IMG/VR virus record: IMGVR_UViG_3300021963_000811
Coordinates: 1 to 20,441 of that record
DNA length: 20,441 nucleotides
Direction: 5' to 3' (one strand)
Origin: a virus
Part shown: one piece after another, positions 3,892 through 18,412 of the stretch
Numbering within the stretch: the first letter of the stretch is position 1
How the letters are laid out: the number at the start of each line of letters is the position of its first letter
Position numbers and translations under genes: made by a program
The notes under the pieces: model-generated
The model's input: only the letters and a program-made list of their open reading frames with translations
What the model was told of the DNA's origin: nothing
Databases searched by the model: none

Positions 3892-4407
3892 ATGATATAC
3901 AATCCATCTTTATCTGAAGTAGAATTAGAAAAAAAATTCAAAAAACTTCGTAAACTAAATTACAATGCTTTTAGATGGTGGAGGATGTATGACGATCCTA
4001 AACCCTCATTACCTAAACAATCCCAATTAATAGACAGGATAAAAAATGGTGATTTTGATTATTCTCATTACAACTACCAAGCTATGTGGTGTGAACATGA
4101 AATGAATAAAATTTACAATAAATACGGTTTTGAAGATATGGGACGTTATGTAGAAGAAACTTCATTACTTCGTTCTAGAAGAAAACGTTTATTAGAAGAT
4201 CATTATCGAGAAGAAGATAATAGATTAGAATCAATTACTATTGAATTATCAAAAGCCTTTAGAATCACCAAAGACGAAGTAAAAGTATTTATGGAAGAGT
4301 TTGGAGGTACTTTAGAAGAATTATATATTCATTTAGAACAAAAATTTCCATTTAACAAATTTTATTTACCAAAATCATTAAAACATTTACAATCACGTTA
4401 TGATTAA
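3892..4407 (+). CDS. Hypothetical protein, charged and helical
   Basis: I do not recognise this 171-residue protein. It is rich in K, R, E and Y, predicted mostly helical, and has no signal peptide or membrane segment, so it should be cytoplasmic. Visible features include an aromatic cluster near residues 24-33 (NAFRWWRMYD) and a basic run SLLRSRRKRLL (about 91-101). It is the first gene after the terminator-promoter at 3845-3873. Its stop overlaps the start of the TGT-like gene by 8 nt, so the two are probably translated together and could act in the same process, but nothing in the sequence shows how. Confidence 0.7.
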   Translation: MIYNPSLSEVELEKKFKKLRKLNYNAFRWWRMYDDPKPSLPKQSQLIDRIKNGDFDYSHYNYQAMWCEHEMNKIYNKYGFEDMGRYVEETSLLRSRRKRLLEDHYREEDNRLESITIELSKAFRITKDEVKVFMEEFGGTLEELYIHLEQKFPFNKFYLPKSLKHLQSRYD

Positions 4408-5188
4408 AATTTCACATGAATTACCACTTAGTCTACTTCCTTATAGTATGGACTGGAACGATTATGAGTATTGTTTACCTCATTTAATAGATAAACATGA
4501 AGACTATAGACAATTTTTCCTAGATTCTAGCGAAAGAGGTCGCTTTATTATAATGGACAATGGTCTATTTGAAGGTGTTACTCACACAACTCAGGATTTA
4601 TTAGAAAAAATAGATCTAATCCAACCTAACATCTTTATTGTACCTGATGAATGGAATGAAAGGGACATCACGGCTAAAAACGCCAAACATTGGACCCAGT
4701 ACAAGTTGCCGTTTAAAACTAAATTAATGGTAGTATTACAGGGTAAGACCGTAAATGAGATACATACATTGTACCAACAGTGTGTAGATTTAGGTTATAC
4801 TCATTTTGCTTTTAATCATTCTTCTATTGTATATCAAGAATTAGGAGGATCAGAAAATCCATTAGCTAACCAATCAGTTGGTAGAGTAATGTTAATCCAA
4901 TATTTACTAACACAAAATGTTATTAAAGACCATCATTACATTCATTTATTAGGAGCATCTACTCCACAAGAATTTATTTATTACAGAGACACTCATCCAA
5001 CATTAATCAATTCAGTTGATACTTCAAACCCAATTATATGTGGAGCTTTAGGTATAAGATATGATGAAATAGGATTATTAACTAAACCTTCTAATAAAAT
5101 AGAAGAATTTATGGAACAGAATCTTGAAGATAAATTAGAAGACATAATATTTAACGTCAGCGCATTTAAAAAATTCTGCAACAAATAA
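4400..5188 (+). CDS. TGT-like TIM-barrel transglycosylase, candidate phage DpdA
   Basis: The 262-residue protein shows the motif order of the tRNA-guanine transglycosylase superfamily: FIIMDNGLFEG (D53, equivalent to the DSGGF aspartate), IVPDEW (D83), VVLQG (Q114-G115), IHLLGASTPQEF (181-192) and NSVDTSNPI (D207, at the place of the nucleophilic aspartate). Phage members of this superfamily, called DpdA, exchange guanine in DNA for a 7-deazaguanine base and thereby block restriction enzymes. A queC homologue 7.7 kb downstream makes the preQ0 precursor and favours this reading. No zinc-binding cysteine cluster of bacterial Tgt is present. It could instead act on tRNA, but phage context favours DNA. 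The start overlaps the upstream gene by 8 nt. Confidence 0.55.
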   Translation: MIKISHELPLSLLPYSMDWNDYEYCLPHLIDKHEDYRQFFLDSSERGRFIIMDNGLFEGVTHTTQDLLEKIDLIQPNIFIVPDEWNERDITAKNAKHWTQYKLPFKTKLMVVLQGKTVNEIHTLYQQCVDLGYTHFAFNHSSIVYQELGGSENPLANQSVGRVMLIQYLLTQNVIKDHHYIHLLGASTPQEFIYYRDTHPTLINSVDTSNPIICGALGIRYDEIGLLTKPSNKIEEFMEQNLEDKLEDIIFNVSAFKKFCNK

Positions 5189-5190
5189 TT

Positions 5191-5769
5191 ATGAAAAACC
5201 TATTTTTATTCCTCCTATTACCATTATTCTCTTTTAGTCAGTTAAGAGATAGTGTTTATGTTAAAACTGACATTTATGAAGTAATGTATTCTGAAACATT
5301 AGAACAACCTCTTTGGGTAAAATATCAAGTTCAATGTGTTGATGGTACAGCATCTAGAAAAGGAATGGATTTTTATGTAGATAAAACAATCCATACATCA
5401 GATGCAAAAGACTATGTAAATAATGTTTACGATAAAGGGCATTGCGCCCCAGCAGCTGATTTTAACTGTACTAGAGAAATGTTATTTAAAACCTTTTCAT
5501 ACTTAAATTGTACTCTTCAAAATGAAAGACTAAATAGAGTTCATTGGAGGTTATTAGAAGATTATGAAAGACTGTTAGCTTATACAGAAGGTCCAGTAAA
5601 TATAGAAATAAGAATAGTATTTGATAAAAATCCCATTAGGGTACCCGCAGGTGCGGCTATACCTTCCTCTTTTTACAAAATCATCAAAACAAAAAATAAA
5701 ACACTTAAATTTTTCTTTAAAAATGAGCCACCTACAAAAGCAACATTTGTAGACTATCAAATAAGATAA
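5191..5769 (+). CDS. Secreted non-specific DNA/RNA endonuclease (beta-beta-alpha-Me, DRGH type)
   Basis: A 192-residue exported nuclease. A Sec signal peptide (MKNLFLFLLLPLFSFSQ) precedes a domain with the Endonuclease_NS active-site motif DKGHCAPAADF (D81-K82-G83-H84). H84 is the general base. Downstream, CTLQNERLNRVHWRLLEDYER supplies the metal-binding asparagine (N111) and the following helix with W119 and E123. Lysine replaces the usual arginine of DRGH. The protein should act in the periplasm or outside the cell. Possible roles are removal of host DNA from lysate, degradation of DNA of competing phages entering the periplasm, or biofilm DNA digestion; the sequence does not decide. It starts 2 nt after the transglycosylase gene and uses the common AATTATG start context. 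Confidence 0.8.
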   Translation: MKNLFLFLLLPLFSFSQLRDSVYVKTDIYEVMYSETLEQPLWVKYQVQCVDGTASRKGMDFYVDKTIHTSDAKDYVNNVYDKGHCAPAADFNCTREMLFKTFSYLNCTLQNERLNRVHWRLLEDYERLLAYTEGPVNIEIRIVFDKNPIRVPAGAAIPSSFYKIIKTKNKTLKFFFKNEPPTKATFVDYQIR

Positions 5770-5782: not shown

Positions 5783-6784
5783 ATGAAACTTGGTCCGCAA
5801 CATATTTTAAAATTGTTATACCCCCTTATTCTCACTATAGGGGGTATTTTGTCTACATACGGGCAAACTTTTACACACTCTGGCTATATCTATGGATCAA
5901 ATAGCACAGGAATATCAGGTGTGCCAGTTTATCTATACAGTAGAACAACTCCAGCATTAACAGGATTTACCTCACAAAATAATTACAATGGTCATTCCTA
6001 TTATAGAAGTACAGGTTCAATGACTTGGACAGCTGCGAAAACAGCTTGCACTAATATGGGAGGGCATTTAGTAACTGTAACCACAGCCGCAGAAAATAGT
6101 TTTATATTTGGATTATGGCCTTCTGGATGGATAGGTCTAACAGATGAAGTAACTGAAGGGGTTTGGCAATGGGTAACAGGAGAACCTTATTCTTGGTCTA
6201 ACTGGAACTCAGGAGAACCTAATAATGCTGGTAATGAAGATTATATTCAATTTGTAGGAGGAGGAAAATGGAACGATTTACCTAATACATCTTTACCTTA
6301 TGTATTAGAATTTGAATATATTGTAGATTATACTCCTTGGACTTTAATAGCCACCTCTACAACAGATATCACAGGAAGGTACTCATTTTCAAGTGCAACT
6401 AATCCATCTATAGAATATTATATTACATTTAATGCTCCTTCTCCAATAACACCAATTACTTCAGATGGGATATCTTTAAATAGTATTGTAACAGGTATTA
6501 CAACTACTAAAGCAGTAGATTATTTTAGATTTGATATAAACGGAGATAATAGACTTACAGTTTCAGACACATATAGTGTAATAGCTAGAAAATCAGGATT
6601 AATTCCTCCATTTACTTTAACTCCACTTAGTAGAATTTTTACATCAACACAATGGACAACTATTAATCCTTCAACATTAAATTTAAAAACAACATACCCC
6701 GGAGTTCAATCTATAACAATTAATACTCCTGTATCAGGAGGTGTATCAAATTATTACATAACAAGATTAGGAAACGCTAATTAG
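5783..6784 (+). CDS. Exported C-type lectin protein with dockerin-like C-terminal module
   Basis: A 333-residue surface or extracellular protein. A signal peptide (about residues 1-28, ending TYGQ) is followed by GVPVYLYSRT (46-55), the start of a carboxypeptidase-regulatory/CnaB-like sandwich. A C-type lectin domain (about 68-178) is inserted, and the sandwich resumes with TDITGRYSFSS. The lectin has the mannose-type calcium site EPNN (145-148) and WND (163-165), so it should bind sugars. It keeps only one cysteine (C89), so the usual disulfides are missing. Residues 251-262 form an EF-hand-like dockerin loop, D-x-N-x-D...D, followed by a 70-residue tail shared with the next protein. Probable role: the sugar-binding end of a cohesin-dockerin assembly. 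The stop is TAG. Confidence 0.75.
   Translation: MKLGPQHILKLLYPLILTIGGILSTYGQTFTHSGYIYGSNSTGISGVPVYLYSRTTPALTGFTSQNNYNGHSYYRSTGSMTWTAAKTACTNMGGHLVTVTTAAENSFIFGLWPSGWIGLTDEVTEGVWQWVTGEPYSWSNWNSGEPNNAGNEDYIQFVGGGKWNDLPNTSLPYVLEFEYIVDYTPWTLIATSTTDITGRYSFSSATNPSIEYYITFNAPSPITPITSDGISLNSIVTGITTTKAVDYFRFDINGDNRLTVSDTYSVIARKSGLIPPFTLTPLSRIFTSTQWTTINPSTLNLKTTYPGVQSITINTPVSGGVSNYYITRLGNAN
5818..5850 (+). terminator. Terminator-like hairpin inside the lectin signal-peptide codons
   Basis: ATACCCCC (5818-5825) pairs with GGGGGTAT (5840-5847) across a 14-nt loop and is followed by TTT. It lies 36 nt into the lectin gene and about 50 nt after the nuclease stop. It could be the terminator of the preceding operon or an attenuator of the lectin gene. 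The loop is large and the T-run short. Confidence 0.4.
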
Positions 6785-6819
6785 TAAATATTTATTCAAG
6801 ATATAAGTGCTAAAGCACC

Positions 6820-6843
6820 TAGGTTATATTAACAATTAACTTA
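6820..6843 (+). promoter_or_regulatory. Candidate late promoter, second AGGTTATAT copy
   Basis: TAGGTTATATTAACAATTAA lies 34 nt before the ATG at 6855 and matches the element at 1852-1875 in sequence and in distance to the start codon. A small GTGC-TAAA-GCAC hairpin lies just upstream (about 6808-6819). Confidence 0.35.
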
Positions 6844-6854
6844 AAAACAAAAAA

Positions 6855-7949
6855 ATGAAAAAAATTCTTTTAGTTTTAAGTATGTTTTTAGTAGTAATCA
6901 CAGGCTTTGCACAACAAGTAGCGCCAGATAACACTAAACCATACTTAGTATTTGACGCGAGTTACAACTTAGCTCCTGTATCTTCAGGGACAAACACGCA
7001 AGTTGCAATTTACTACAGCAATTTAAATGCGACAGCTATTAAAGCAGTTCAATTTAGATTCTGGTATGATAAAACTGTATTTGATTCTCCAACTGTAACT
7101 TATACAGGTACTGAAGCAAATAACTTATTCAACACAAAAGTAAACACTACAGAAGGAAATGTAACTGTTACGTGGGTTTACACTGGAACAGATGCTAATT
7201 TTAATATTGCCAATGGAGCAATGTTTAATGTAGCTTTACCGTTTAAAGCCACTTATACTAATGGTACAGTGACAGCAATGGCATTTACAGGAGCAACAGC
7301 TTATCCAGCTTATGGAGCTTTAGCAAATGGAACTGATACTACTTTAGGATTACAAAACTACGGAGGTGCATTTACAGAACCAGTATTCCAATATGCAGCT
7401 ACAATGTTAAACAGCCCAACTAATCCTGCTTCAGATGTACCAGTTATTCTACAAAAATCTTCAAATGGAACAACTTGGGTAGATGTAATGACTGTTAATA
7501 CTGCTCCAACAACAGGAGTAGCATCATTTACAACTAACTTAGATCAAAACTACTGGCAAATTAGAGTTAAAGTAGCTCCAGGTATTACAGCACCAGGTGC
7601 TTTAGCAGCTGCAGATGCAGATATGATCGCTCAAATTGCTACAGGATTACAAACACCAACTGGAATTCAATTCTATACTGCTAACCCTAACCAATCAAAT
7701 GGAATCACAATTTCAGATTCATATACAGTATTCTCTAGATTAGCTCAAGGTTTATCAGCATATCCAACTACACCTGATATTTTATTCTTTACAGAAGCTC
7801 AATATAATACAATTGCAGCATCTTCTACAGATCAATCAGCTACAATTCCAGGAGTATCAACATTCTTATCGGCTAATATCAACAATACTACAGCTGCAAA
7901 TTACTATCTGTTAGTATTAGGAGACGCCAACGGAACAGGACATAATTAA
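6855..7949 (+). CDS. Exported cohesin-like and dockerin-like adaptor protein
   Basis: A 364-residue secreted protein. The signal peptide MKKILLVLSMFLVVITGFAQ is followed by a beta-rich domain (about residues 28-175) whose pattern AVQFRFWYDKTVF ... GNVTVTWVYTG ... NGAMFNVALPFKATY resembles a cohesin: a beta-sandwich that binds dockerins. A second beta-rich stretch follows (180-240). Residues 277-288 (N-P-N-Q-S-N-G-I-T-I-S-D) align with the dockerin-like loop of the lectin protein, and the remaining tail also aligns: SDSYTVFSR, FTEAQYNTI, PGV and ANYYLLVLG. A protein with both partners can link a sugar-binding unit to an anchored unit. The gene has its own candidate promoter and stops one base before the next start. 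The cohesin call is from fold pattern and is less certain than for the next gene. Confidence 0.65.
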   Translation: MKKILLVLSMFLVVITGFAQQVAPDNTKPYLVFDASYNLAPVSSGTNTQVAIYYSNLNATAIKAVQFRFWYDKTVFDSPTVTYTGTEANNLFNTKVNTTEGNVTVTWVYTGTDANFNIANGAMFNVALPFKATYTNGTVTAMAFTGATAYPAYGALANGTDTTLGLQNYGGAFTEPVFQYAATMLNSPTNPASDVPVILQKSSNGTTWVDVMTVNTAPTTGVASFTTNLDQNYWQIRVKVAPGITAPGALAAADADMIAQIATGLQTPTGIQFYTANPNQSNGITISDSYTVFSRLAQGLSAYPTTPDILFFTEAQYNTIAASSTDQSATIPGVSTFLSANINNTTAANYYLLVLGDANGTGHN

Positions 7950-7950
7950 T

Positions 7951-8361
7951 ATGCTACGCTATTTATTCATAGCATTATTATCAATAAATTCACTATATTC
8001 CCAGGTACAATTTCAAGTGCCTGGGATTACAGTGACTCCCTCTAATACTATAGATTTACCTGTAACAATCCAAACAAATGGAAATACAGTAGGAAGTTTA
8101 GAATTTGCTTTGAATTATGACCAATCAATTTTACAATTTACAGAAATAGTATTATCTGAAAAAACACAAACCTGGTTAACATATGTGATGGATACAGGAA
8201 GTGGAAAAGTAAGATGGGGTGGTTATGATAAAACTCATGGGCAACATTCTGTTAACACACCAACTGAACTCTTTATTTTAAAATTTGCGGTATTAAATCC
8301 AAACTGGATTACAACTCCTATCACTGTTGGGAGAAAAACAGCAGGAGATGTTCAAGGATGA
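7951..8361 (+). CDS. Cohesin-domain protein, ended by an in-frame TGA before its T9SS signal
   Basis: As read with the standard code, this gene gives a 136-residue protein: signal peptide MLRYLFIALLSINSLYSQ, then a cohesin fold. Diagnostic segments are the DLPVTIQTNGNTVGSLEFAL strand pair, NYDQSILQF, SGKVRWGGYD and ELFILKFAVL. The open frame ends with TGA at 8359-8361 inside the last part of the cohesin domain, but the same frame continues for 106 more residues (8362-8679) with the missing last strand and a T9SS sorting domain. The expected residue at the TGA is plausibly tryptophan (TGG). The product is probably the anchor of the surface assembly when the TGA is read through; without readthrough it is a truncated soluble cohesin. 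Confidence 0.7.
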   Translation: MLRYLFIALLSINSLYSQVQFQVPGITVTPSNTIDLPVTIQTNGNTVGSLEFALNYDQSILQFTEIVLSEKTQTWLTYVMDTGSGKVRWGGYDKTHGQHSVNTPTELFILKFAVLNPNWITTPITVGRKTAGDVQG

Positions 8362-8682
8362 GATATTGCGGTAGTAAATACTGACGGGTACATAAATTAT
8401 AATAGAACAGGAATACCTGTCAATGAAACTAAAATACAAGGGATTGTACATCCAAACCCTACAGACGGATTAGTAACTATAGATTTAATATTACCAGTAA
8501 GTGATTACTATAAAATAACAGTCCTTAATATAAATGGCTCTGAATTAAGAAGAAGAGTAGAACGATACATTAAAGGATCAAATATATTAGAAGAAGATTT
8601 AACATCTTACCCAAGTGGTACCTATTTATTAAATATAACAACTAGGGATTTTACCCAAACATTTAAAATTATAAAAAATTAA
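8362..8682 (+). other. In-frame continuation after TGA: cohesin end plus T9SS type A sorting domain
   Basis: The frame of the preceding gene continues from 8362 to a TAA at 8680-8682. It encodes DIAVVNTDGYINYN (end of a cohesin) and then a T9SS type A sorting domain: HPNPTDG, VTIDLIL, YYKITVLNINGSEL, LTSYPSGTYLL and terminal FKIIKN. Such domains direct export and surface attachment by the type IX system, found only in Bacteroidetes. There is no methionine codon in this segment, so it can only be made by reading through the TGA. Alternatives are a nonsense mutation or a base error (TGG read as TGA). The intact coding quality of all 106 codons argues against long-standing decay. Confidence 0.7.
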
Positions 8683-8685: not shown

Positions 8686-9012
8686 ATGTCAGAAGAAACA
8701 AACAACGAAGGTGGATTATCAGGATTGAAAAAAACCATCATTGGAACATTAGGAACTGTAGTAACAGCTGGAGGAGTATGGTTAACAACTCACTTAGGGG
8801 GTGGTGAAACAGAACACAAAGAAGAGCCAAAAACTGAAGTAGCAGCTCCTGCACCAGCAGCAGCACCTGTTGTTATTAATTTACAAAATAATAACACCAA
8901 CCAACAAAAACAACAATCAAACAATTCAAACACAGCTAAAGCAGCACCTGCACCTGTACAACAACAACCAGCACCGGTACAAGCAGCTCCAGCTCAAAAA
9001 GAATCATGGTAA
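8686..9012 (+). CDS. Small membrane protein with Pro/Ala/Gln/Asn-rich tail
   Basis: The 108-residue protein has a glycine-rich hydrophobic segment (about residues 15-34, LKKTIIGTLGTVVTAGGVWL) after a short acidic N-terminus, then a low-complexity tail of APAPAA, Q/N runs and AAPAPVQQQPAPVQ. No family was recognised. An N-terminal membrane anchor with a long flexible P/A/Q tail resembles periplasm-spanning linkers, as in TonB-like or tail-tether proteins, but no TonB motif is present. It lies 3 nt after the T9SS segment and overlaps the CsgG-like gene by 7 nt, so it probably belongs to the same envelope cassette. Confidence 0.65.
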   Translation: MSEETNNEGGLSGLKKTIIGTLGTVVTAGGVWLTTHLGGGETEHKEEPKTEVAAPAPAAAPVVINLQNNNTNQQKQQSNNSNTAKAAPAPVQQQPAPVQAAPAQKESW

Positions 9013-9716
9013 GAAAATTACTATTTCTATTTTTATTCTTTGGATTAACAGCCTGTGCTCAAAAAATAGGATCTGTAAAAACTGAGGAATATAAAGCCGA
9101 TTTTGAAAAGAAACAATCATTAGAGGTTGTATCTGATTATAACGGAAACATTATTATTCCTATTCAGATACTAAAGATTGGTATTAATGAAGAATTATAT
9201 GAGATGTACCCTGAACTAAAAGATAAAAGAGTTGGTTTAGGGGTATCAAATATTGTATTAGAATACTTAGAATCTACAAACAGATTTAAATTTACAGAAG
9301 ATAAAGAAGAAATAAAACAAAAAATGATTGCTCAACATATAGCTTCAGCTAAGGGTATATCAGAAAATAAAATAGAAGTTAAGGGAAATGTTATATTAGC
9401 AAAATATTTTGTTTATATAGAAGTTTATGATTTTAGCGTAGGTGAAGACGAAGAAGTAACAACTTCAGGAGCTGAAATAAGACAAAAAACAATATTAGGG
9501 TTACAAGTAAGATTTGTGGATGCACAAACTGGTGAAATAATCACAGGATCAGGATCCGGTGAGGCTGTTACGGTGAAGAAAGCTAATCTACTTGACGGAC
9601 TCGACGATATAAAATTTAATCAATCAACAATCGGGATATCTACTAAAAAGTCATTAGAAACTGCTTCTTCAAGAGTAGTAAGTAAAATGATTAAAAAGGG
9701 GATATTTCCAAACTAA
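9006..9716 (+). CDS. CsgG-like outer-membrane lipoprotein
   Basis: A 236-residue lipoprotein: signal sequence with lipobox GLTAC (C17). The body matches the CsgG pattern: VGLGVSNIVLEYLESTNRFKF (where CsgG has an activator-helix segment ending in F-x-V), AKYFVYIEVYDFS (the ALVYG-x-I-t-e-F strand), LQVRFVDAQTGEIITGSGSG (the R-V-D-x-x-T-G-E-I strand) and a final helix with repeated alanine and valine. CsgG forms a nonameric secretion pore for curli subunits in the outer membrane. Homologues are known in some marine phages, where their role is unsettled. Here it lies with two outer-membrane barrel candidates and a periplasmic protein. The start overlaps the upstream gene by 7 nt; its stop and the next start share one base (TAATG). 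Confidence 0.7.
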   Translation: MVRKLLFLFLFFGLTACAQKIGSVKTEEYKADFEKKQSLEVVSDYNGNIIIPIQILKIGINEELYEMYPELKDKRVGLGVSNIVLEYLESTNRFKFTEDKEEIKQKMIAQHIASAKGISENKIEVKGNVILAKYFVYIEVYDFSVGEDEEVTTSGAEIRQKTILGLQVRFVDAQTGEIITGSGSGEAVTVKKANLLDGLDDIKFNQSTIGISTKKSLETASSRVVSKMIKKGIFPN

Positions 9717-11149
9717 TGAAAAAATGGATTTCTTTATTTGTATTCTTTCTTTCCCTACAGGCTTTAGCCCAGTACAGTTATACCTATACAGACCCTTGTA
9801 CCTTAACATCAAAAACCGTATTCGTACCTGCTGGAGGAAATGTAGTGGTAAACTACTTCAATAACACAAACACCTTTAATTCAAACGACTTCTCATCAGG
9901 AGCATTCGATGCTTGGATAACTCTAGTATCTCAATTAAATTCAAACTCACCTTGTCAATCTGTAACTACAGCTATTGTAAATAGTATAACTAATGTAACA
10001 GTTGCAAACACACTAACTGTTGTTACAAATGTAATATCAGTAACAAATGTAGCTCAATCTATAGCAACCATAGGAGGATCTATGGGAAGTTCTATGACAG
10101 CTACAGCCGGAGGCGTAACAAACTCTTCACAAAGTGAAGGAGGTAGTACTAACCAAAACTCAACAAATGAAAAAAAATCAAACTCAAATACCACTTCAGG
10201 AACAAATTCAGGATCTACTGGAACAAGCCCAGCAGGTAACCAAAATCAAGGAAGCCAAACCAATCCTAGTTCTTCTGGAGGAACACCTGCGGGATCTTCA
10301 ACAGGAACACCTCAGCAAGGAGGAGACACTACAAATCCAAATCAACCAACTTCAACAGGAAGTTCAACGTCTGAGTCATCTGTAGAAGGGTCAAGTGGTA
10401 GTGGTAATAATTTAGCTAACTCTTTATCAAATTCTGTAGATGGAGGATCAGCTGATGGTGGAAGTACATCAGGTGGAGGAGGAACATCAGGTGGTAGTAA
10501 AAAATCTAACACTGCTGCTAAAAGTGTAGGAAGTTTAATTGCCTCAGGAGATATAGTAGCTATCGCCAATACTGACCAAACTCAAAACTTCAGATTTGTA
10601 GGAAGTATAACTCATGCTAATACTAGAGGAACTAGAATTAAAGGAGTATTATTTAATTTTACATCAGGAGTTAATAACTTAAATGTTACTTTTTATAAAT
10701 CTTGGATTAATAAATCTAAAAAATTAAATACAGTAGGTGCTCAATCCTTTATGATGGATTTTGATAAAAACTTCTTTAGCACAACTACAGTGTTAGAATC
10801 ATATAAAGTAAGTAACAAACTAACAGGAATGTTTGGGGTTAATTTTACAGCAGGTAAAATGGGAGAAAGATCCTTATTAAATCTATCTGCTGTAGCTGGA
10901 GGGCATAGTAGCTTTAAAGTAAACGATAGAATTAGTACTAGCGTACTTGTACTAGGAGTATATTCTCCATTCACTCAATTCTACGAAGGTAAGTGGTGGG
11001 ATGCAGGAATAATAGCTGTACCATTTAATTCATGGGATATAAAAATAACTAAAACGTTTAAATTTAACGTAAGCCTTACAGGAGTGTACGAAGTAGGTAA
11101 ACAATTTCTAAACTATCAAATACTAACAGGAGGTAAATTAAATTTTTAA
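9716..11149 (+). CDS. Exported Ser/Gly/Thr/Asn-rich protein with outer-membrane barrel-like C-terminus
   Basis: A 477-residue protein with three parts. The signal peptide MKKWISLFVFFLSLQALAQ is followed by an N-terminal domain with two cysteines (CTLTS and SPCQS). Residues about 130-270 are a low-complexity S/G/T/N/Q tract with many SGGTS-like repeats. From about 275, alternating hydrophobic and polar strands end in GGKLNF, as expected of an outer-membrane beta-barrel with a terminal phenylalanine. The next large gene ends in the same way (GGNLDF), so the two are related in their barrel part. The low-complexity region may be exposed outside or span the periplasm. It overlaps csgG-like by one base. 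Function unknown; a secreted or pore-associated partner of the CsgG-like protein is plausible. Confidence 0.65.
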   Translation: MKKWISLFVFFLSLQALAQYSYTYTDPCTLTSKTVFVPAGGNVVVNYFNNTNTFNSNDFSSGAFDAWITLVSQLNSNSPCQSVTTAIVNSITNVTVANTLTVVTNVISVTNVAQSIATIGGSMGSSMTATAGGVTNSSQSEGGSTNQNSTNEKKSNSNTTSGTNSGSTGTSPAGNQNQGSQTNPSSSGGTPAGSSTGTPQQGGDTTNPNQPTSTGSSTSESSVEGSSGSGNNLANSLSNSVDGGSADGGSTSGGGGTSGGSKKSNTAAKSVGSLIASGDIVAIANTDQTQNFRFVGSITHANTRGTRIKGVLFNFTSGVNNLNVTFYKSWINKSKKLNTVGAQSFMMDFDKNFFSTTTVLESYKVSNKLTGMFGVNFTAGKMGERSLLNLSAVAGGHSSFKVNDRISTSVLVLGVYSPFTQFYEGKWWDAGIIAVPFNSWDIKITKTFKFNVSLTGVYEVGKQFLNYQILTGGKLNF

Positions 11150-11152: not shown

Positions 11153-11221
11153 ATGAAAAAAATATCAGATTATTTAGCAGCTTTATACGATAGAATTTCA
11201 AATTTCCTTTTTGGAAAATAA
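11153..11221 (+). CDS. 22-residue amphipathic micro-ORF
   Basis: ATG at 11153 opens a 22-codon frame: MKKISDYLAALYDRISNFLF followed by GK, ending TAA. It begins 3 nt after the preceding stop in the same TAA-ATT-ATG arrangement used by neighbouring real genes. The peptide would form an amphipathic cationic helix, with hydrophobic residues I4, Y7, L8, L11, Y12, I15, F18, L19 on one face. It fills the only gap between two outer-membrane protein genes. It may be a membrane-active peptide or a translational coupling leader. No homologue is known to me. Confidence 0.45.
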   Translation: MKKISDYLAALYDRISNFLFGK

Positions 11222-11231
11222 AACTTTAATT

Positions 11232-12020
11232 ATGAAAAAATTATTATTAATTATCTTAATATTGGTAGGTAATCTGGTGTATTCTCAAACATCACCTCCA
11301 CCACCAGCACCAGCACCCCCATCTGCTAACGAGCAGTTTAACTCAACTCAAAATAATATTATAGGGGCTCAAGCAAAATCATTTGGAGGAGGATCTTTAG
11401 TAAAACCTAACCCTATGCTAACATCTGCTGATTTTGCATTAATCCAAAATCCAACATTTGAATCTGGATGGAGATATGGTACTAGTTTAGGTTACAGTAA
11501 GATAAGTAAAGGAAGAGGTTTTGGTGTTAACGCTGTGCTTACTTTTGATTTAACTCAACAGTCTTATTCATCTTATTATAGAAACAAAAACTGGTATTAC
11601 CATTTTAATTTTGGAAAAATGGGTACTGCCCATAACATAGGAGGGAGTGTTACTAATATGAAATTAACTAAAAAAATTAATTACGGTTACCAAATTGGAG
11701 CTTCTGTAGTTGAAGATAGTGAATATATTTATTTTATATTAGTTCCCTATGCTGTTATTATGGCAAATAAGGAAATGACTATAACCTCTAGAACTAAATG
11801 GACACCAGAAGTATTTATAACAGTGTGTTCACCTTACTATGATTTAGGTATTAGTAAAAGCGGAACTTCAGATACATTTAATGCAGTTGTAGGTAATAAC
11901 ATGTCAGTTAAAGTATCAAAAGCTTTTAAGTTAAATATTAATTGGAGAATGAATATAAACACAACACCAAAATTTGGCATAATGAATAATGTACTAATTG
12001 GTGGAAATTTAGACTTTTAA
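11232..12020 (+). CDS. Exported outer-membrane beta-barrel protein
   Basis: The ATG at 11232 gives 262 residues with a clean signal peptide (MKKLLLIILILVGNLVYSQ); the frame is open further upstream only through a TTG at 11211, which would bury this signal, so the ATG is preferred. After a proline-rich linker (SPPPPAPAPP) come alternating beta strands with many aromatic residues (YGTSLGYSKIS, GFGVNAVLTFDL, KLNINWRMNINT) ending in GGNLDF, typical of an outer-membrane barrel. Size suggests a small barrel of about 10-12 strands. It is paralogous in its last part to the preceding 477-residue protein. Role unknown; it belongs to the CsgG-like cassette by position. Confidence 0.65.
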   Translation: MKKLLLIILILVGNLVYSQTSPPPPAPAPPSANEQFNSTQNNIIGAQAKSFGGGSLVKPNPMLTSADFALIQNPTFESGWRYGTSLGYSKISKGRGFGVNAVLTFDLTQQSYSSYYRNKNWYYHFNFGKMGTAHNIGGSVTNMKLTKKINYGYQIGASVVEDSEYIYFILVPYAVIMANKEMTITSRTKWTPEVFITVCSPYYDLGISKSGTSDTFNAVVGNNMSVKVSKAFKLNINWRMNINTTPKFGIMNNVLIGGNLDF

Positions 12021-12916: not shown

Positions 12917-13798
12917 ATGTCTAAAAAACATGTTGTAGTATCACTTTCAGGTGGTATGGACTCAAGTACTTTGTTACTTAGATGTCTAAAAGAGTATGAT
13001 AGTGTAACAGCTATCTCATTTGACTATGGTCAAAAACACAGAATAGAGCTAGAGAGAGCTCAATCATTAATTGATTACTTAAATAATGCTTATAATGTTT
13101 CAACATTTGAGCCTATTAAGGTAAACTATCGTCAAATTCAATTAAACGGATTAGTTGATCTATTAGATTCAGCTTTAGTAACAGGAGGAGAAGATGTACC
13201 TGAAGGTCATTATGCAGAAGATAATATGAAAGCAACAGTTGTTCCTAATAGAAACAAAATATTTGCTTCTATTACTCAAGCAGTAGCCTTATCAGTTGCA
13301 AACAGAACAGGAGAGACTTGTGACATTGCAATGGGTATCCATGCAGGTGATCATGCAATTTATCCAGACTGTAGACAAGAATTTAGAGATGCAGATGATG
13401 CGGCTTTTAGAATTGGAAATTGGGAAGCAGAAAGAGTAGGTTATTTTACACCTTATTTAGAAGGAGATAAATTTACTATCTTACAAGACGGAGAAGTATT
13501 ATGTAAAGAGTTAGGATTAGATTTTGATGAGGTTTATAAAAGAACTAATACATCTTATAAGCCAATTAAAATAGTAACTAGTGGATTTGTACAAACATCT
13601 CCAGAAAATACAAAATTTACCTCACCTGTAGTGACTTGGTACTCAGACTATAAATCAGCTTCATCAGTTGAAAGAGTAGAAGCATTTATTAAATTAGGAA
13701 GACCTGATCCAGCACCTTATGCAGACGAAACAGGACCAGTAACATGGGAACATGTAGTAACAGAAGTAACAAAAGTATTAGATAATCATAACAAATAA
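12917..13798 (+). CDS. queC: QueC-like 7-cyano-7-deazaguanine (preQ0) synthase lacking zinc cysteines
   Basis: QueC converts 7-carboxy-7-deazaguanine to preQ0 using ATP and ammonia. The ATP-pyrophosphatase loop SGGMDSS (residues 11-17), FDYGQKHRIELERA (35-48), VVPNRNKIFASI (108-119) and GIHAGDHAIYPDCRQEF (140-156) are all present and diagnostic. At 293 residues it is longer than typical bacterial QueC (about 220-230). The C-terminal Cys4 zinc site is gone: before VERVEAF (251-257) the family normally has C-x-x-C-x-x-C, here D244, S247 and S250, and the first cysteine is also absent, with an insertion of about 25 residues (214-240). Cysteines occur only at 23, 135, 152 and 196. The enzyme may fold without zinc or have altered activity. 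It pairs logically with the TGT-like gene at 4400. Confidence 0.88.
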   Translation: MSKKHVVVSLSGGMDSSTLLLRCLKEYDSVTAISFDYGQKHRIELERAQSLIDYLNNAYNVSTFEPIKVNYRQIQLNGLVDLLDSALVTGGEDVPEGHYAEDNMKATVVPNRNKIFASITQAVALSVANRTGETCDIAMGIHAGDHAIYPDCRQEFRDADDAAFRIGNWEAERVGYFTPYLEGDKFTILQDGEVLCKELGLDFDEVYKRTNTSYKPIKIVTSGFVQTSPENTKFTSPVVTWYSDYKSASSVERVEAFIKLGRPDPAPYADETGPVTWEHVVTEVTKVLDNHNK

Positions 13799-15571: not shown

Positions 15572-15655
15572 GGAAGGCATCCGGCTGGATCAGGAGCTAC
15601 TCTTGAAAAGTAGTAGCAGGTAATACTGTTGTGGGTTCGAGTCCCACGTCTTCCT
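15572..15655 (+). tRNA. tRNA-Ser(TGA)
   Basis: Acceptor GGAAGGC/GTCTTCC, anticodon arm CTACT-CTTGAAA-AGTAG, a long variable arm as expected for serine, and T-arm GTGGG-TTCGAGT-CCCAC. First tRNA of the array. CCA is not encoded. Confidence 0.93.
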
Positions 15656-15661
15656 CAATAT

Positions 15662-15733
15662 TGGCTTATAGTGTAACGGTTAGCACAAAACACTTTGACT
15701 GTTTTAGTCTAGGTTCGAATCCTGGTAAGCCAA
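15662..15733 (+). tRNA. tRNA-Gln(TTG)
   Basis: Acceptor TGGCTTA/TAAGCCA, anticodon arm AAACA-CTTTGAC-TGTTT, T-arm CTAGG-TTCGAAT-CCTGG, discriminator A followed by CAAA. Confidence 0.93.
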
Positions 15734-15742
15734 CAAATAATT

Positions 15743-15818
15743 CGGGTAGTAGAGGAGTCAGGTTTATCTCGCTGGCCTTGGACGCTAGAGCACGCAGGTT
15801 CGAATCCTGCTTACCCGA
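15743..15818 (+). tRNA. tRNA-Pro(TGG)
   Basis: Acceptor CGGGTAG/TTACCCG, anticodon arm CTGGC-CTTGGAC-GCTAG, T-arm GCAGG-TTCGAAT-CCTGC, discriminator A. Confidence 0.9.
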
Positions 15819-15824
15819 CGAATT

Positions 15825-15896
15825 GCCCCTATAACTTAACGGCTAAAGTACTATACTTTTAATATAGGAATCCAAGTTCGATTCTTGGTGGGGGTA
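15825..15896 (+). tRNA. tRNA-Lys(TTT)
   Basis: Acceptor GCCCCTA/TGGGGGT, anticodon arm CTATA-CTTTTAA-TATAG, T-arm CCAAG-TTCGATT-CTTGG. Confidence 0.93.
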
Positions 15897-15904
15897 CAAA
15901 AATT

Positions 15905-15975
15905 GCCTCGTTGGCGTAATGGAAGCGTATTTCTTTTACATGGAAATGGCAGTAGTTCGATTCTACTACGAGGTA
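15905..15975 (+). tRNA. tRNA-Val(TAC)
   Basis: Acceptor GCCTCGT/ACGAGGT, anticodon arm TTTCT-TTTACAT-GGAAA, T-arm GTAGTTCGATTCTAC. 71 nt, with a compact D-arm. Confidence 0.9.
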
Positions 15976-15983
15976 CAAAAATT

Positions 15984-16064
15984 GGGATGCTTCAGTCACT
16001 GGTGTGATAAGCGGTCTGTAAAATCGTTCTGTAAGAAGGTGTGGTTCGATTCCACAGTGTCCCA
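15984..16064 (+). tRNA. tRNA-Tyr(GTA)
   Basis: Acceptor GGGATGC/GTGTCCC, anticodon arm GCGGT-CTGTAAA-ATCGT, extended variable arm as in bacterial tyrosine tRNA, T-arm TGTGG-TTCGATT-CCACA. Confidence 0.92.
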
Positions 16065-16069
16065 CAATT

Positions 16070-16142
16070 GGACCTTTTGTATAGCTGGTGCGTACGCTAG
16101 TCTGAAGAACTAGAGGAACAGGTTCGATTCCTGTAGGGTCCA
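16070..16142 (+). tRNA. tRNA-Phe(GAA)
   Basis: Acceptor GGACCTT/AGGGTCC, anticodon arm CTAGT-CTGAAGA-ACTAG, T-arm ACAGG-TTCGATT-CCTGT. Confidence 0.93.
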
Positions 16143-16151
16143 CAATAAAAA

Positions 16152-16223
16152 GGGTTTGTCGTATAAAGGCTATTACGGAGAGCTGTTAACTCTTTTATGA
16201 AGGTTCGATTCCTTCCAGGCCCG
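16152..16223 (+). tRNA. tRNA-Asn(GTT)
   Basis: Acceptor GGGTTTG/CAGGCCC, anticodon arm GAGAG-CTGTTAA-CTCTT, T-arm GAAGG-TTCGATT-CCTTC, discriminator G. Confidence 0.92.
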
Positions 16224-16229
16224 CAAAAT

Positions 16230-16303
16230 AGGTAATTAGCTCAATTGGTTAGAGCACTCGCCTGATACGTGAGAGGTTATAGGTTCGATTCCTATATTAC
16301 CTA
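16230..16303 (+). tRNA. tRNA-Ile(GAT)
   Basis: Acceptor AGGTAAT/ATTACCT, standard D-arm TAGCTCAATTGGTTAGAGCA, anticodon arm CTCGC-CTGATAC-GTGAG, T-arm ATAGG-TTCGATT-CCTAT. Confidence 0.94.
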
Positions 16304-16308
16304 CAAAT

Positions 16309-16393
16309 GGAAAGTAAACTGACAAGGTGTTAGGATGCCCTGCTAAGGCAATCGCTCGATAAAACGGGTTCGTTTCGAGTACGATGCTTTCCT
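16309..16393 (+). tRNA. tRNA-Ser(GCT)
   Basis: Acceptor GGAAAGT/GCTTTCC, anticodon arm ATGCC-CTGCTAA-GGCAA (inner four pairs), long variable arm. The T-arm is weaker than in neighbours (TCGT-TTCGAGT-ACGA, four pairs). Confidence 0.88.
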
Positions 16394-16400
16394 CAAAAAA

Positions 16401-16491
16401 ACCTACTCCCCGCCCTCACAACGTATTTAAGGAATACAGGAGCAGAATGTACAATCGGGGCGACGTGGTGGGACACTTTAAAATCTTAGGT
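16401..16491 (+). ncRNA. Structured non-tRNA segment 1 of the array
   Basis: Begins after the same CAAAAAA spacer that precedes other elements. ACCTA (16401-16405) can pair with TAGGT (16487-16491). Inside, CCCCG (16408-16412) can pair with CGGGG (16456-16460), GTATT-TAAGG-AATAC forms a hairpin, and CAC/GTG plus CCC/GGG (16413-16419 with 16465-16472) would cross the CCCCG helix as a pseudoknot. GC-rich compared with coding DNA. No tRNA arms recognised. Confidence 0.4.
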
Positions 16492-16493
16492 AC

Positions 16494-16590
16494 AACGATA
16501 AGTTAATGGGTTCTTATCAAACGCCGACTTGATCAGGTGATCGAAAATATCTCATAAGTATTTTCAGAGTGGATCGTTACCACTAGTCGG
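16494..16590 (+). ncRNA. Structured non-tRNA segment 2, pseudoknot type
   Basis: AACGAT (16494-16499) pairs with ATCGTT (16573-16578) and CCGACT (16524-16529) pairs with AGTCGG (16585-16590), crossing as an H-type pseudoknot. A hairpin GAAAATA/TATTTTC (16543-16565) lies in the connecting loop. GATAAG/CTTATC (16497-16518) is a competing local hairpin. It ends 8 nt before tRNA-His. Confidence 0.4.
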
Positions 16591-16598
16591 TACTATAT

Positions 16599-16671
16599 GG
16601 TGGTTCTAGCTTAATTGGTAAAGCGCTTCACTGTGAATGAAGAGAACAGGGTTCGAAACCCGGTATCACCC
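16599..16671 (+). tRNA. tRNA-His(GTG)
   Basis: Anticodon arm CTTCA-CTGTGAA-TGAAG, acceptor GGTGGT/ATCACC plus one mismatch, discriminator C as expected for histidine. The usual extra 5' G (G-1) is T here, so it would not be encoded. T-arm CAGGG-TTCGAAA-CCCGG with one mismatch. Confidence 0.88.
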
Positions 16672-16674
16672 CAA

Positions 16675-16727
16675 CCCGTAGGAAGCCTATCATGACCTGA
16701 GTAGGATGGAAACTCGGATATCAGGTC
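16675..16727 (+). ncRNA. Structured segment between tRNA-His and tRNA-Leu
   Basis: A hairpin TAGG-AAG-CCTA (16679-16689) is followed by GACCTGA (16694-16700) pairing with TCAGGTC (16721-16727); inside, GAGT pairs with ACTC. The segment ends 5 nt before tRNA-Leu, the usual spacing in this array. Confidence 0.35.
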
Positions 16728-16732
16728 TTTAA

Positions 16733-16812
16733 ACCCCTGTGGTGAAAATGGTAAACACACCAGGCTTAAAACTTGGCGCTCAGGCTTGCTGGTTCGACTC
16801 CAGTCAGGGGTA
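16733..16812 (+). tRNA. tRNA-Leu(TAA)
   Basis: Acceptor ACCCCTG/CAGGGGT, anticodon arm CCAGG-CTTAAAA-CTTGG, T-arm GCTGG-TTCGACT-CCAGT. The variable arm is short for a leucine tRNA. Confidence 0.9.
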
Positions 16813-16819
16813 CAAAAAA

Positions 16820-16897
16820 ATCGCTGATGTCCTCTTTAATTGTTCGACATCGAAGATGTGTAATGATATCAACATCGTAGGTTAAGCGATATCCTAC
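16820..16897 (+). ncRNA. Pseudoknot RNA element A of a two-member family
   Basis: ATCGCT (16820-16825) pairs with AGCGAT (16885-16890). Hairpin GTAGG (16877-16881)/CCTAC (16893-16897) holds that strand in its loop, giving an H-type pseudoknot. Two more hairpins fill the first loop: GATGTC/GACATC and GATGT/ACATC. It begins 7 nt (CAAAAAA) after tRNA-Leu and ends 4 nt before tRNA-Arg. The 3' module GTAGGTTA-N6-nTCCTAC is shared with the element at 17059-17110. Confidence 0.55.
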
Positions 16898-16901
16898 AAC
16901 T

Positions 16902-16973
16902 GGTCTTATAGTTTAATTGGAAAAACTTATCGCTACGAACGATAGAACGTAGGTTCGACTCCTACTAAGACCT
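16902..16973 (+). tRNA. tRNA-Arg(ACG)
   Basis: Acceptor GGTCTTA/TAAGACC, anticodon arm TATCG-CTACGAA-CGATA, T-arm GTAGG-TTCGACT-CCTAC. The A34 is normally edited to inosine by host TadA. Confidence 0.93.
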
Positions 16974-16979
16974 CAAAAT

Positions 16980-17051
16980 GCTCTTATAGTTTAATCGGAA
17001 GAATAAAACGCTTCTAACGTTTTGGTCCTGGTTCGAGTCCAGGTAGGGGTA
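16980..17051 (+). tRNA. tRNA-Arg(TCT)
   Basis: Acceptor GCTCTTA/TAGGGGT with G-T pairs, anticodon arm AAACG-CTTCTAA-CGTTT, T-arm CCTGG-TTCGAGT-CCAGG. Confidence 0.93.
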
Positions 17052-17058
17052 CAAAAAA

Positions 17059-17110
17059 ACCTTTCAAAAAGCAAGTCTGATCAACTTCAGTAGGTTAAAA
17101 GGTGTCCTAC
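17059..17110 (+). ncRNA. Pseudoknot RNA element B of a two-member family
   Basis: ACCTTT (17059-17064) pairs with AAAGGT (17098-17103), which lies in the loop of GTAGG (17090-17094)/CCTAC (17106-17110). A short hairpin AAGT-CTGATCA-ACTT fills the first loop. It starts after the identical CAAAAAA spacer and ends 5 nt before tRNA-Trp. Compared with the element at 16820, the N6 pairing partners change together while the flanking GTAGGTTA and TCCTAC are unchanged. Confidence 0.55.
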
Positions 17111-17115
17111 AAAAT

Positions 17116-17186
17116 GCGTTCCGCAGACAAGGTGTCGGTCAGGTCTCCAAAACCTCGACGGCGGGGTTCGATTCCTCGGGTTCGTG
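17116..17186 (+). tRNA. tRNA-Trp(CCA), atypical
   Basis: Anticodon arm CAGGT-CTCCAAA-ACCTC (four inner pairs) and T-arm CGGGG-TTCGATT-CCTCG identify it. The acceptor GCGTTCC/GGTTCGT has two T-T mismatches in the middle and the D-arm has a 3-bp stem with a 5-nt loop. Function may be reduced or processing unusual. Confidence 0.8.
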
Positions 17187-17218
17187 CAAATATATTGTTT
17201 CATTAAAAATTAAAAATC

Positions 17219-17725
17219 ATGAGTAAGTATCAAAAAGCACTAGTAGTGGATGCAAGCTTTACAGCAAGATCAGTTATAAGTACCGAACGAGCGTTCGTGA
17301 TTTTTTATAAAGGTAATGCTGAAGTGATAGCAGAGCATCCAGAAACATTTAGTCTGATTAATCCAGAGTTAACTATTTACAAACCATCTATTATTAGAGT
17401 TGCTAAATATGTAAAACAGAATATTCAGAAAGTACCTCTAACAAGAGAGAACGTTTACAGAAGAGACAACTACGAATGTGTGTATTGCGGTTGTTCAAAT
17501 CAAAAAATATTAACATTGGATCATGTTGTTCCTCAATCAAAAGGAGGAAAAGATGCTTGGGACAATTTAGTAACAGCATGTAGACCATGTAACCATGCGA
17601 AAGCAGATTTAACATTAGAGGAATATGGTAAGGAAATTCCAGAACCAAAAAGACCTCACTATTTAATGTTAATGAGAAGTATGACTTACATACCAAAAGA
17701 ATGGGAAACATTTTTATTCTTCTAG
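17219..17725 (+). CDS. HNH endonuclease
   Basis: A 168-residue HNH nuclease lying inside the tRNA array. Zinc-type HNH core: C88-x-x-C91 (YECVYCGCSNQ), LDHVVPQSKGG with the catalytic histidine, WDNLVTACRPCN with the second cysteine pair, and a final lysine (HAKADLT). The N-terminal 70 residues (LVVDASFTARSVISTERAFV, FYKGNAEVI) match the leader region common to a widespread family of bacterial and phage HNH proteins. It may be a free-standing homing-type nuclease that spreads the surrounding tRNA genes, or have a role in DNA packaging; the location favours the former. No promoter was seen directly upstream, so it is probably transcribed with the first tRNA group. Stop TAG. Confidence 0.85.
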   Translation: MSKYQKALVVDASFTARSVISTERAFVIFYKGNAEVIAEHPETFSLINPELTIYKPSIIRVAKYVKQNIQKVPLTRENVYRRDNYECVYCGCSNQKILTLDHVVPQSKGGKDAWDNLVTACRPCNHAKADLTLEEYGKEIPEPKRPHYLMLMRSMTYIPKEWETFLFF

Positions 17726-17735
17726 TAAAATAAGT

Positions 17736-17764
17736 TTGGAAAACCAAAAATAATTTCTTATATT
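17736..17764 (+). promoter_or_regulatory. Promoter TTGG-N19-TATATT for the second tRNA group
   Basis: TTTGG ends at 17739 and TATATTTAG begins at 17759, with exactly 19 nt between TTGG and TATATT. It lies directly after the HNH stop and 17 nt before tRNA-Cys. Confidence 0.7.
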
Positions 17765-17781
17765 TAGGTATAAGAAAATTT

Positions 17782-17851
17782 GACCGAGTTGACCATGGAG
17801 GTCGGCAGGATTGCAAACTCTGCAGAGTAAGTTCGATTCTTACCTTGGTCT
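17782..17851 (+). tRNA. tRNA-Cys(GCA)
   Basis: Acceptor GACCGAG/CTTGGTC, anticodon loop TTGCAAA on stem CAGGA/CTCTG (one A-C mismatch), T-arm GTAAG-TTCGATT-CTTAC, discriminator T. Confidence 0.9.
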
Positions 17852-17857
17852 CATTAA

Positions 17858-17940
17858 GGTTCGACCCTCTACCAAATGTGTTACACCCACAGGTGGATTC
17901 ATGAGGGAGCTACCGATTGATAAGTGGTCGCACACGCGAC
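17858..17940 (+). ncRNA. Structured segment between tRNA-Cys and tRNA-Leu
   Basis: Contains hairpins GTCGC-ACAC-GCGAC (17927-17940) and CACC-CACA-GGTG (17884-17895), and CCTC (17866-17869) can pair with GAGG (17903-17906). It ends 4 nt before tRNA-Leu. Fold is less clear than for other segments. Confidence 0.3.
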
Positions 17941-17944
17941 AAAT

Positions 17945-18018
17945 GCCTGAGTGGTGGAATTGGAATACACGGCGGCCTTAGAACCCGTCTATTGAGAGTT
18001 CGAGTCTCTCCTTAGGTA
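17945..18018 (+). tRNA. tRNA-Leu(TAG)
   Basis: Acceptor GCCTGAG/CTTAGGT, anticodon loop CTTAGAA with stem GCGGC/CCCGT (one C-C mismatch), T-arm GAGAG-TTCGAGT-CTCTC. The variable region is short for leucine. Confidence 0.86.
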
Positions 18019-18023
18019 CAATA

Positions 18024-18101
18024 GATAGGTCTCAAAGTGATTGAGATATTGGTAGATTTAATTGCTCGGAAGAGCTAGACTAAGCATCTAGTCCGCCTAT
18101 C
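18024..18101 (+). ncRNA. Structured segment after tRNA-Leu(TAG)
   Basis: GATAGG (18024-18029) pairs with CCTATC (18096-18101), enclosing hairpins TCTCA/TGAGA, GCTC-GGAA-GAGC and CTAGA-CTAAGCA-TCTAG. The terminal helix is followed by G-CA, like the tRNA 3' ends here, but there is no T-arm. 78 nt, tRNA-sized. Confidence 0.42.
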
Positions 18102-18109
18102 GCATTAAA

Positions 18110-18177
18110 ATTAGAGTTAGCTTATAGTAAAGCAGCGGGGGCTAACCCGCAGAACGGATACGAAAACCGGCTCTAAT
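18110..18177 (+). ncRNA. Structured segment before tRNA-Thr, pseudoknot type
   Basis: ATTAGA (18110-18115) pairs with TCTAAT (18172-18177). Inside, GTTAGC (18116-18121)/GCTAAC (18141-18146) crosses GCGG (18135-18138)/CCGC (18147-18150). The closing helix gives it a tRNA-like outline, but D, anticodon and T-arm consensus are missing. It ends 5 nt before tRNA-Thr. Confidence 0.42.
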
Positions 18178-18182
18178 TATCT

Positions 18183-18256
18183 GCTTCTGACGCACAAATG
18201 GTGGTGCACTGGATTTGTAACCCAGAATAGAGTCGGTTCGATCCCGTCCAGAAGCT
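18183..18256 (+). tRNA. tRNA-Thr(TGT)
   Basis: Acceptor GCTTCTG/CAGAAGC, anticodon loop TTTGTAA on CTGGA/CCCAG, T-arm GTCGG-TTCGATC-CCGTC with one mismatch, discriminator T. Confidence 0.88.
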
Positions 18257-18260
18257 CAGC

Positions 18261-18310
18261 AGTCATTTGAACTAGCACTAGGACAATGACTACCAGCGGA
18301 GGAAGCTAGT
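18261..18310 (+). ncRNA. Structured segment after tRNA-Thr, H-type pseudoknot
   Basis: AGTCATT (18261-18267) pairs with AATGACT (18285-18291) and ACTAGC (18271-18276) with GCTAGT (18305-18310), crossing with loops of 3, 8 and 13 nt. This is a compact, geometrically plausible pseudoknot beginning 4 nt after the tRNA. Confidence 0.42.
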
Positions 18311-18346
18311 CTCACGGTTGGTCCTGTAGGTTGTGGTTACCCGTAA

Positions 18347-18412
18347 ATCCACATAAAGAGACTCCTGCCAGGTAAAGTAGGTGGATGGTCCGGTTTTGGA
18401 CTAAGCTTTACC
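18347..18412 (+). ncRNA. Structured segment before tRNA-Gly, pseudoknot type
   Basis: ATCCAC (18347-18352) pairs with GTGGAT (18381-18386) and GGTAAAG (18371-18377) with CTTTACC (18406-18412), with a 3-nt junction and a hairpin GTCC-GGTTTT-GGAC in the third loop. Topology and the 5-nt distance to the next tRNA match the elements at 16820 and 17059. Alternative pairings with 18308-18313 (AGTCTC/GAGACT) exist. Confidence 0.42.

Follow-up and report, generated by a model that had tools for sequence, protein, structure and literature searches.

What do three adjacent viral genes that seem to encode lectin, cohesin and dockerin modules do for the virus that carries them? The genes lie at positions 5783-8682, all on the + strand, of the IMG/VR contig IMGVR_UViG_3300021963_000811 (20.4 kb), which was analysed over its whole length of 20,441 nucleotides and is called the window below. 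Assembly through cohesin and dockerin is familiar from bacteria that digest cellulose and has been met in scattered cases outside cellulosomes, and our literature search for a phage-borne cohesin or dockerin found no description of one. A first-pass annotation of the window had read the three open reading frames (ORFs), ORF1 to ORF3, as the effector, adaptor scaffoldin and anchoring scaffoldin of a phage-encoded mini-cellulosome. We consider it probable, though by no means assured, that these genes belong to a cassette encoding a cohesin-dockerin surface display complex, which would be built by the infected Bacteroidota cell and may mask glycan receptors.

ORF1 (5783..6784, + strand) has a signal peptide and, according to Pfam, alignment and an AlphaFold model, is a transthyretin/CnaB-like sandwich with two inserts. 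The model places the lectin in one loop of the sandwich and a dockerin-like helix pair in another, and the sandwich gives a modest match to UafA (Z up to 7.7). The C-type lectin domain (5960..6322, + strand) matches Pfam Lectin_C (PF00059) with E=1.3e-15, and its profile retrieves solved C-type lectins. The EPN (6215-6223; EPNN in the window) and WND (6269-6277) motifs are unchanged in 37 ORF1 homologues, which bears out the intact sugar site described earlier. The dockerin-like segment (6446..6610, + strand; alignment and profiles) carries the sequence DINGDNRLTVSD, in which D251-I-N253-G-D255...D262 is the canonical dockerin/EF loop that had been claimed. Because the lectin domain itself was modelled without a confident fold (predicted local distance difference test, pLDDT, <50) and a Foldseek search with the lectin model gave no match at E<=0.001, the C-type lectin call stands on sequence. 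At that level ORF1 is confirmed as a predicted exported C-type lectin with a dockerin-like insert.

The C-terminal halves of ORF1 and ORF2 are homologous (E=1.8e-12), and the shared module was named X. Its dockerin was missed when single window proteins were compared with Pfam and PHROGs and was revealed by the relatives alone. Pfam Dockerin_1 (PF00404) matched 53 of 73 isolated X-module segments (best 6.7e-7), and a profile of the 73 segments ranked solved dockerins first (E=0.0033). Two helices are predicted in the segment by the AlphaFold models, and the second dockerin repeat is canonical, with N and the last D invariant in the 73 segments and the first D kept in at least 90% of them. Dockerin_1 matched neither the ORF1 segment alone nor full-length ORF1 or ORF2, so that the dockerin call in the window proteins depends on homology to the family. 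The dockerin-like loop proposed for ORF2 (segment at 7596..7760, + strand, by alignment) held in part: the X module is homologous to that of ORF1, but the calcium loop (NPNQSNGITISD) is partly degenerate because it has lost two acidic ligands, which most fused homologues (described below) keep at least partly.

ORF2 (6855..7949, + strand) is adaptor-like, with a signal peptide, a cohesin (~6933-7400) and the X module, as judged from Pfam, homology and the model of a relative. Its cohesin was the call rated weakest at the outset, and its own match to Pfam Cohesin is weak (E=6.6e-4; 20.3 bits, under the gathering score of 24.1). The anchor-like ORF3 (7951..8682, + strand; Pfam, TIGR04183 and profiles) comprises a signal peptide, a cohesin (~8005-8415) and a type A sorting domain of the type IX secretion system (T9SS; 8446-8679), and is interrupted by an in-frame TGA. 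With the TGA read through, it matches Cohesin (PF00963; E=1.5e-7, 32.1 bits), Por_Secre_tail (PF18962; E=7e-9) and TIGR04183 (E=1.2e-10), in agreement with the cohesin and downstream T9SS signal of the first-pass annotation. Of the two family comparisons proposed there, that with cohesin succeeded for ORF3 and that with dockerin for most relatives, but not for the ORF1 segment.

ORF2 and ORF3 are usually one protein in relatives, of ~634 residues and with the order Coh-X-Coh-T9SS; we call the two cohesins COH2 and COH3. The Cohesin profile matches 31 of 34 fused scaffolds (best 1e-15), Por_Secre_tail is found in all 34, and a COH3 profile matches solved cohesins at E=2.5e-6. An AlphaFold model of a fused scaffold (mean pLDDT 81.5), which represents a relative and not the window proteins, is consistent with the nine-stranded cohesin fold: solved cohesins match each of its two cohesin positions (Z 14.8; root-mean-square deviation, rmsd, 2.6-2.9 over 140-146 residues). 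The region equivalent to ORF2 is thus modelled as a cohesin (Z 14.8, rmsd 2.6 Å), and the structure prediction called for earlier favours even the weakest of the domain calls. The CipA Coh-X-DocII unit (4fl4_I, 3kcp_A) aligns in the same order to residues 26-302 of the fused model (Z 14.7), with an rmsd of 9.3 that would fit an altered inter-domain angle. A different arrangement was seen in L208:53-2650 and its relatives L204, L210 and L212, single proteins of ~865 residues that end in a cohesin and carry, besides a C-type lectin and a dockerin-like loop, an LCCL domain (Pfam E=8e-12 in L208); they constitute a natural fusion of effector and cohesin parts.

The relatives of the window speak for the phage origin that had been assumed. 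The window is akin to the cultured Flavobacterium phage immuto (160 kb), which covers 44% of it at ~81% identity. The immuto orthologues of ORF1 to ORF3 are uninterrupted and 65-72% identical, and the depositors of immuto already labelled two of the three 'lectin C-type' and 'cohesin domain-containing'. In a scan of viral contigs we recovered 84 relatives of ORF1, 33 of ORF2, 28 of ORF3 and 145 of the neighbouring gene CSG, together with 327 stretches akin to the fused scaffold, and our own profiles built from these relatives were used to annotate the cassette loci. The gene order is kept across more than 100 loci, and the cassette is carried by a large family of viruses of aquatic Bacteroidota. 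A scan for the scaffold in 84,980 species genomes (one per bacterial or archaeal species) gave only two loci, both in metagenome bins, and the topoisomerase, endolysin-like and tail-collar-like genes on one of the bin contigs identify that contig as phage. On a CSG tree, rooted by midpoint only, split scaffolds cluster in the clade that includes the window and immuto, with fused relatives around them, and the form changes three times in all. This distribution indicates that fusion is probably the older state and that Coh-X-Coh-T9SS is probably ancestral.

The T9SS tag of the window is reachable only past the TGA (8359..8361, + strand; comparison of homologue codons), whereas the homologues are uninterrupted. 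The codon at this position is TGG (Trp) in 74 of 74 homologues with the motif. Compared with the nearest relative (L005), ORF3 shows 21 synonymous and 7 non-synonymous differences before the TGA and 28 and 11, respectively, after it; the synonymous excess after the TGA indicates that the downstream part was constrained until very recently. The TGA is most likely a recent nonsense change or a sequence error, and it may be read through; as written, ORF3 gives a product that lacks the last cohesin strand and the anchor. A general recoding of TGA as Trp was rejected, since the window genes contain 64 TGG codons, TGA serves as the stop of 9 among 149 long ORFs in immuto, and a search for a tRNA with a TCA anticodon gave none.

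The pairing was scored for 107 distinct scaffold alleles with CSG and P19 in the same locus, and all 107 have an X-bearing effector there too. When counted by fetch set, an effector was present in 40/40, 38/38 and 24/24 loci, and exactly one in 100 of the 102, where the three sets may have alleles in common. None of the sets was fetched with the lectin, and the pairing is therefore not an artefact of query selection. The heads of 39 non-redundant effectors are C-type lectin (25), laminin-G (7), GEVED (4) and PA14 (3), with further heads, and no glycoside hydrolase family was found among their domain matches. The likeness to a cellulosome consequently extends to a cohesin scaffoldin and its dockerin partners but not to plant-polysaccharide-degrading enzymes. 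The cassette is not classed as a cellulosome for this reason, though it appears to be designed to operate in the manner of one. On the CSG tree 28 changes of head class are counted, compared with a minimum of 6 and ~46 for shuffled labels, which indicates that the heads are inherited yet often exchanged. Binding heads of the effectors are swapped between lineages. The division into effector, adaptor and anchor is supported, as a reading of the sequences, by the domain set, by the fused versus split versions and by the constant pairing of scaffold and effector.

Export of the three proteins had also been claimed, and signal-peptide-like N-termini are recognizable by eye in ORF1, ORF2 and ORF3. 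A crude script found such a start in 93-100% of each of the three ORF families versus 13% of other ORFs, and in 88-100% of scaffold, anchor and effector proteins; it misses the window's own ORF3. We propose that the cassette proteins very probably pass the inner membrane by means of these signal peptides. The anchor cohesin COH3 would cross the outer membrane and be fixed on the cell surface through the T9SS type A tag. The dockerin-like part of the adaptor X would pair with the neighbouring COH3, in cis where the scaffold is fused and in trans where the parts are separate, as in the window. COH2, the remaining cohesin, would pair with the dockerin-like part of the one X-effector, which in the window is a C-type lectin; this arrangement would account for the single effector gene per scaffold. 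More speculatively, the linked CsgG-like, barrel-like and TraT-like proteins may assist at the outer membrane, by positioning the untagged parts or exporting them. The exposed lectin head would bind glycans of the infected cell and hide phage receptors, and related phages as well as the phage's own progeny would be spared loss on infected cells and debris. On the window contig the nonsense codon, whether a recent change or an error in the sequence, would remove the anchor tag.

Receptor masking is a tentative assignment made by analogy, and cell aggregation or retention on surfaces are alternative functions. The analogy is with T5 Llp, a superinfection-exclusion lipoprotein that acts on the infected cell to prevent both receptor use and the loss of progeny to debris (PMC9586334). 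We also entertain, as a possibility that we would not yet call likely, a broader reading in which the cassette is a viral cellulosome-like display platform that remodels the surface of the living infected cell. Such a platform, encoded in one phage cassette, would combine an anchor, an adaptor, a replaceable head that binds glycans, and outer-membrane helpers of its own; recombination would swap heads between phages around a constant dockerin plug.

Several observations weigh against the proposed display complex. The role as a receptor mask is drawn by analogy with T5 Llp, neither the effectors nor the split ORF2 bear a T9SS tag, and the anchor gene of the window is interrupted by an in-frame stop. 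The first dockerin half is degenerate throughout, with a helix and one Asp kept but no canonical calcium loop, and in ORF2 of the window's clade the calcium loop of the second half is degraded as well. In host adhesins X, a stretch resembling a cohesin and the T9SS tag all belong to a single chain, from which it follows that some cohesin-dockerin pairing may take place within one chain.

The host proteins came from 395 Bacteroidia genomes, which gave thirteen other matches, essentially confined to the X part and mostly inside large surface proteins. In all five proteins checked, CarboxypepD_reg, Dockerin_1 (best 3.1e-8) and Por_Secre_tail follow one another as in the phages, and one of the five has a weak cohesin match (E=0.0049). 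In L306-L311, large chromosomal T9SS proteins of Bacteroidia genomes, the dockerin-bearing X precedes the sorting domain by a few hundred residues. The six host loci that were read showed neither a further N-terminal cohesin nor a small X-effector nearby. An origin of the whole cassette in a host chromosome was rejected, in view of only two loci in bins and the restriction of the other class matches to the X part. The X-T9SS ends of giant Bacteroidia adhesins are a likely source of the phage scaffold, which has the appearance of a host adhesin end that was shortened, gained a cohesin and is paired with a dockerin-bearing head on a separate protein.

The same host proteins suggest the most serious alternative, namely that cohesin and dockerin act within one chain only, as a rigid stalk or fold brace by the T9SS anchor, and that the lectin is an independent secreted protein that shares X. 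The matching order of X and tag in the chromosomal proteins, of which 5/5 have the dockerin and 1/5 a weak cohesin, and the adjoining of X and COH3 in the fused phage form are what this alternative would lead one to expect. However, the effectors have a dockerin part but neither cohesin nor anchor, an effector lies beside each scaffold allele that shares its locus with CSG and P19, the second cohesin COH2 has no partner in cis, and the scaffold is split in two in the window's clade with the halves still adjacent. We consider this explanation unlikely.

The genes downstream of the scaffold offer another interpretation. P16 (8686..9012, + strand) is small, with one membrane segment and a proline/alanine-rich tail; CSG (9006..9716, + strand) is exported and highly conserved; BAR (9716..11149, + strand) is exported, with a low-complexity linker and a C-terminal region that may resemble an outer-membrane barrel; and P19 (12023..12481, + strand) is exported. 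P16 and P19 are likewise conserved in the cassette, and all four genes, recognized by locus comparison, lie downstream of the scaffold in most loci. BAR2 (11211..12020, + strand; locus comparison), exported and barrel-like by eye, is present in some cassettes only. Signal-peptide-like starts were found in 85-96% of CSG, BAR and P19 proteins and in 58% of P16 proteins, a value that fits the membrane segment of P16. CsgG (PF03783) was matched weakly by 1 of 15 CSG relatives (E=0.01) and TraT weakly by 1 of 23 P19 relatives (E=4.9e-4), and PDB profile searches with the CSG, BAR and P19 alignments gave no useful match. We treat the likenesses of CSG and P19 to CsgG and TraT as weak leads, and CSG, BAR and P19 as candidates for the export of the effector, which has no T9SS tag. 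TraT is a plasmid surface-exclusion protein, and the weak likeness of P19 would fit an exclusion role.

On this basis, the cassette could be primarily an outer-membrane export machine that secretes an extracellular fibre or matrix with the scaffold and lectin as cargo, functioning in adhesion or aggregation rather than masking. The linkage of P16-CSG-BAR-P19 to the scaffold, the untagged effectors and the CsgG and TraT matches are in its favour, but those family matches are single and weak and the scaffolds do carry a T9SS tag; we regard it as improbable.

On the other side of ORF1, an exported EndoG-like DNA/RNA nuclease (5191..5769, + strand; Pfam E=1.5e-24) adjoins the cassette in the window, and in some relatives it is found beside the cassette or within it. 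Once secreted, such a nuclease could destroy the DNA of competing phages.

Lectin, PA14 and laminin-G heads are known from phage adhesins too, which invites the view that the proteins are virion components, either decorations or tail adhesins. This view is difficult to reconcile with the signal-peptide-like N-termini of nearly all scaffold, anchor and effector proteins and with the T9SS tags of the scaffolds. The immuto cassette occupies 10-16 kb, where it adjoins replication genes, with genes for RecA, helicase and ribonucleotide reductase close by; the genes annotated as baseplate, tail and capsid are more than 60 kb away, at 82-101 and 119-160 kb. On the strength of the signal peptides and this position, the proteins are very unlikely to be parts of the virion, in agreement with the first-pass annotation. 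Captured host adhesin fragments without phage function that are decaying in the window lineage, as the in-frame TGA, the degenerate ORF2 loop and the likely source in T9SS adhesins might suggest, are largely refuted by conservation, namely the invariant TGG, the synonymous excess on both sides of the TGA and the conserved gene order.

Other features of the window were recorded in passing. An array of 22 tRNA genes covering 19 amino acids occupies 15572-18998 and includes an HNH-like endonuclease ORF (17219-17725, by eye) and a degenerate tRNA with a CAT anticodon (18735-18804). A tRNA-like stretch with a CCA anticodon loop at 17113-17188 may supply the tRNA-Trp missing from the array. An ORF like a DpdA-type DNA guanine transglycosylase (4400-5188, by eye) and a QueC-like gene (12917-13798) correspond to the 7-deazaguanine DNA modification pathway that is annotated in the relative immuto.

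The proposed display complex resembles the cellulosome scaffoldins (CipA CohI9-X-DocII, 4fl4/3kcp; OlpA/OlpC) in the cohesin and dockerin folds, the Coh-X-Doc order, the effector, adaptor and anchor roles and the anchoring at the surface. It differs in that it is phage-encoded, its effectors are glycan-binding heads instead of glycoside hydrolases, its anchor is a T9SS tag instead of SLH or sortase, and its dockerin sits inside an X-like sandwich with the first half degenerate. The cohesin fold also occurs outside cellulosomes in Clostridium perfringens GH84C/GH33 (2w1n, 2jh2, 2vo8, 2o4e) and in Archaeoglobus (2xdh), but these modules belong to secreted cellular enzymes or proteins and not to a phage surface cassette. 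The Bacteroidota T9SS adhesins have X and the tag ordered as in the X-COH3-CTD half of the phage scaffold, whereas they are chromosomal single giant chains. T5 Llp is alike in its proposed purpose and unrelated in architecture, being a small lipoprotein that jams one protein receptor (PMC9586334). Homologous proteins had already been deposited: the orthologous or homologous products of Immutovirus genes 13-15 (MW353176), annotated singly, and A0A6J5M064 ('Secretion system C-terminal sorting domain', uncultured Caudovirales phage). In the literature searched, these proteins are nowhere described as a complex.

The cassette occurs in numerous virus contigs from the environment and in a phage-host pair in culture, immuto on Flavobacterium sp. 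LMO8. If the proposed display complex is correct, the reshaping of infected Bacteroidota surfaces by phages would become directly testable, the cassettes would be a source of compact new cohesin-dockerin pairs, and a virus would be shown to exploit the type IX secretion system of its host.

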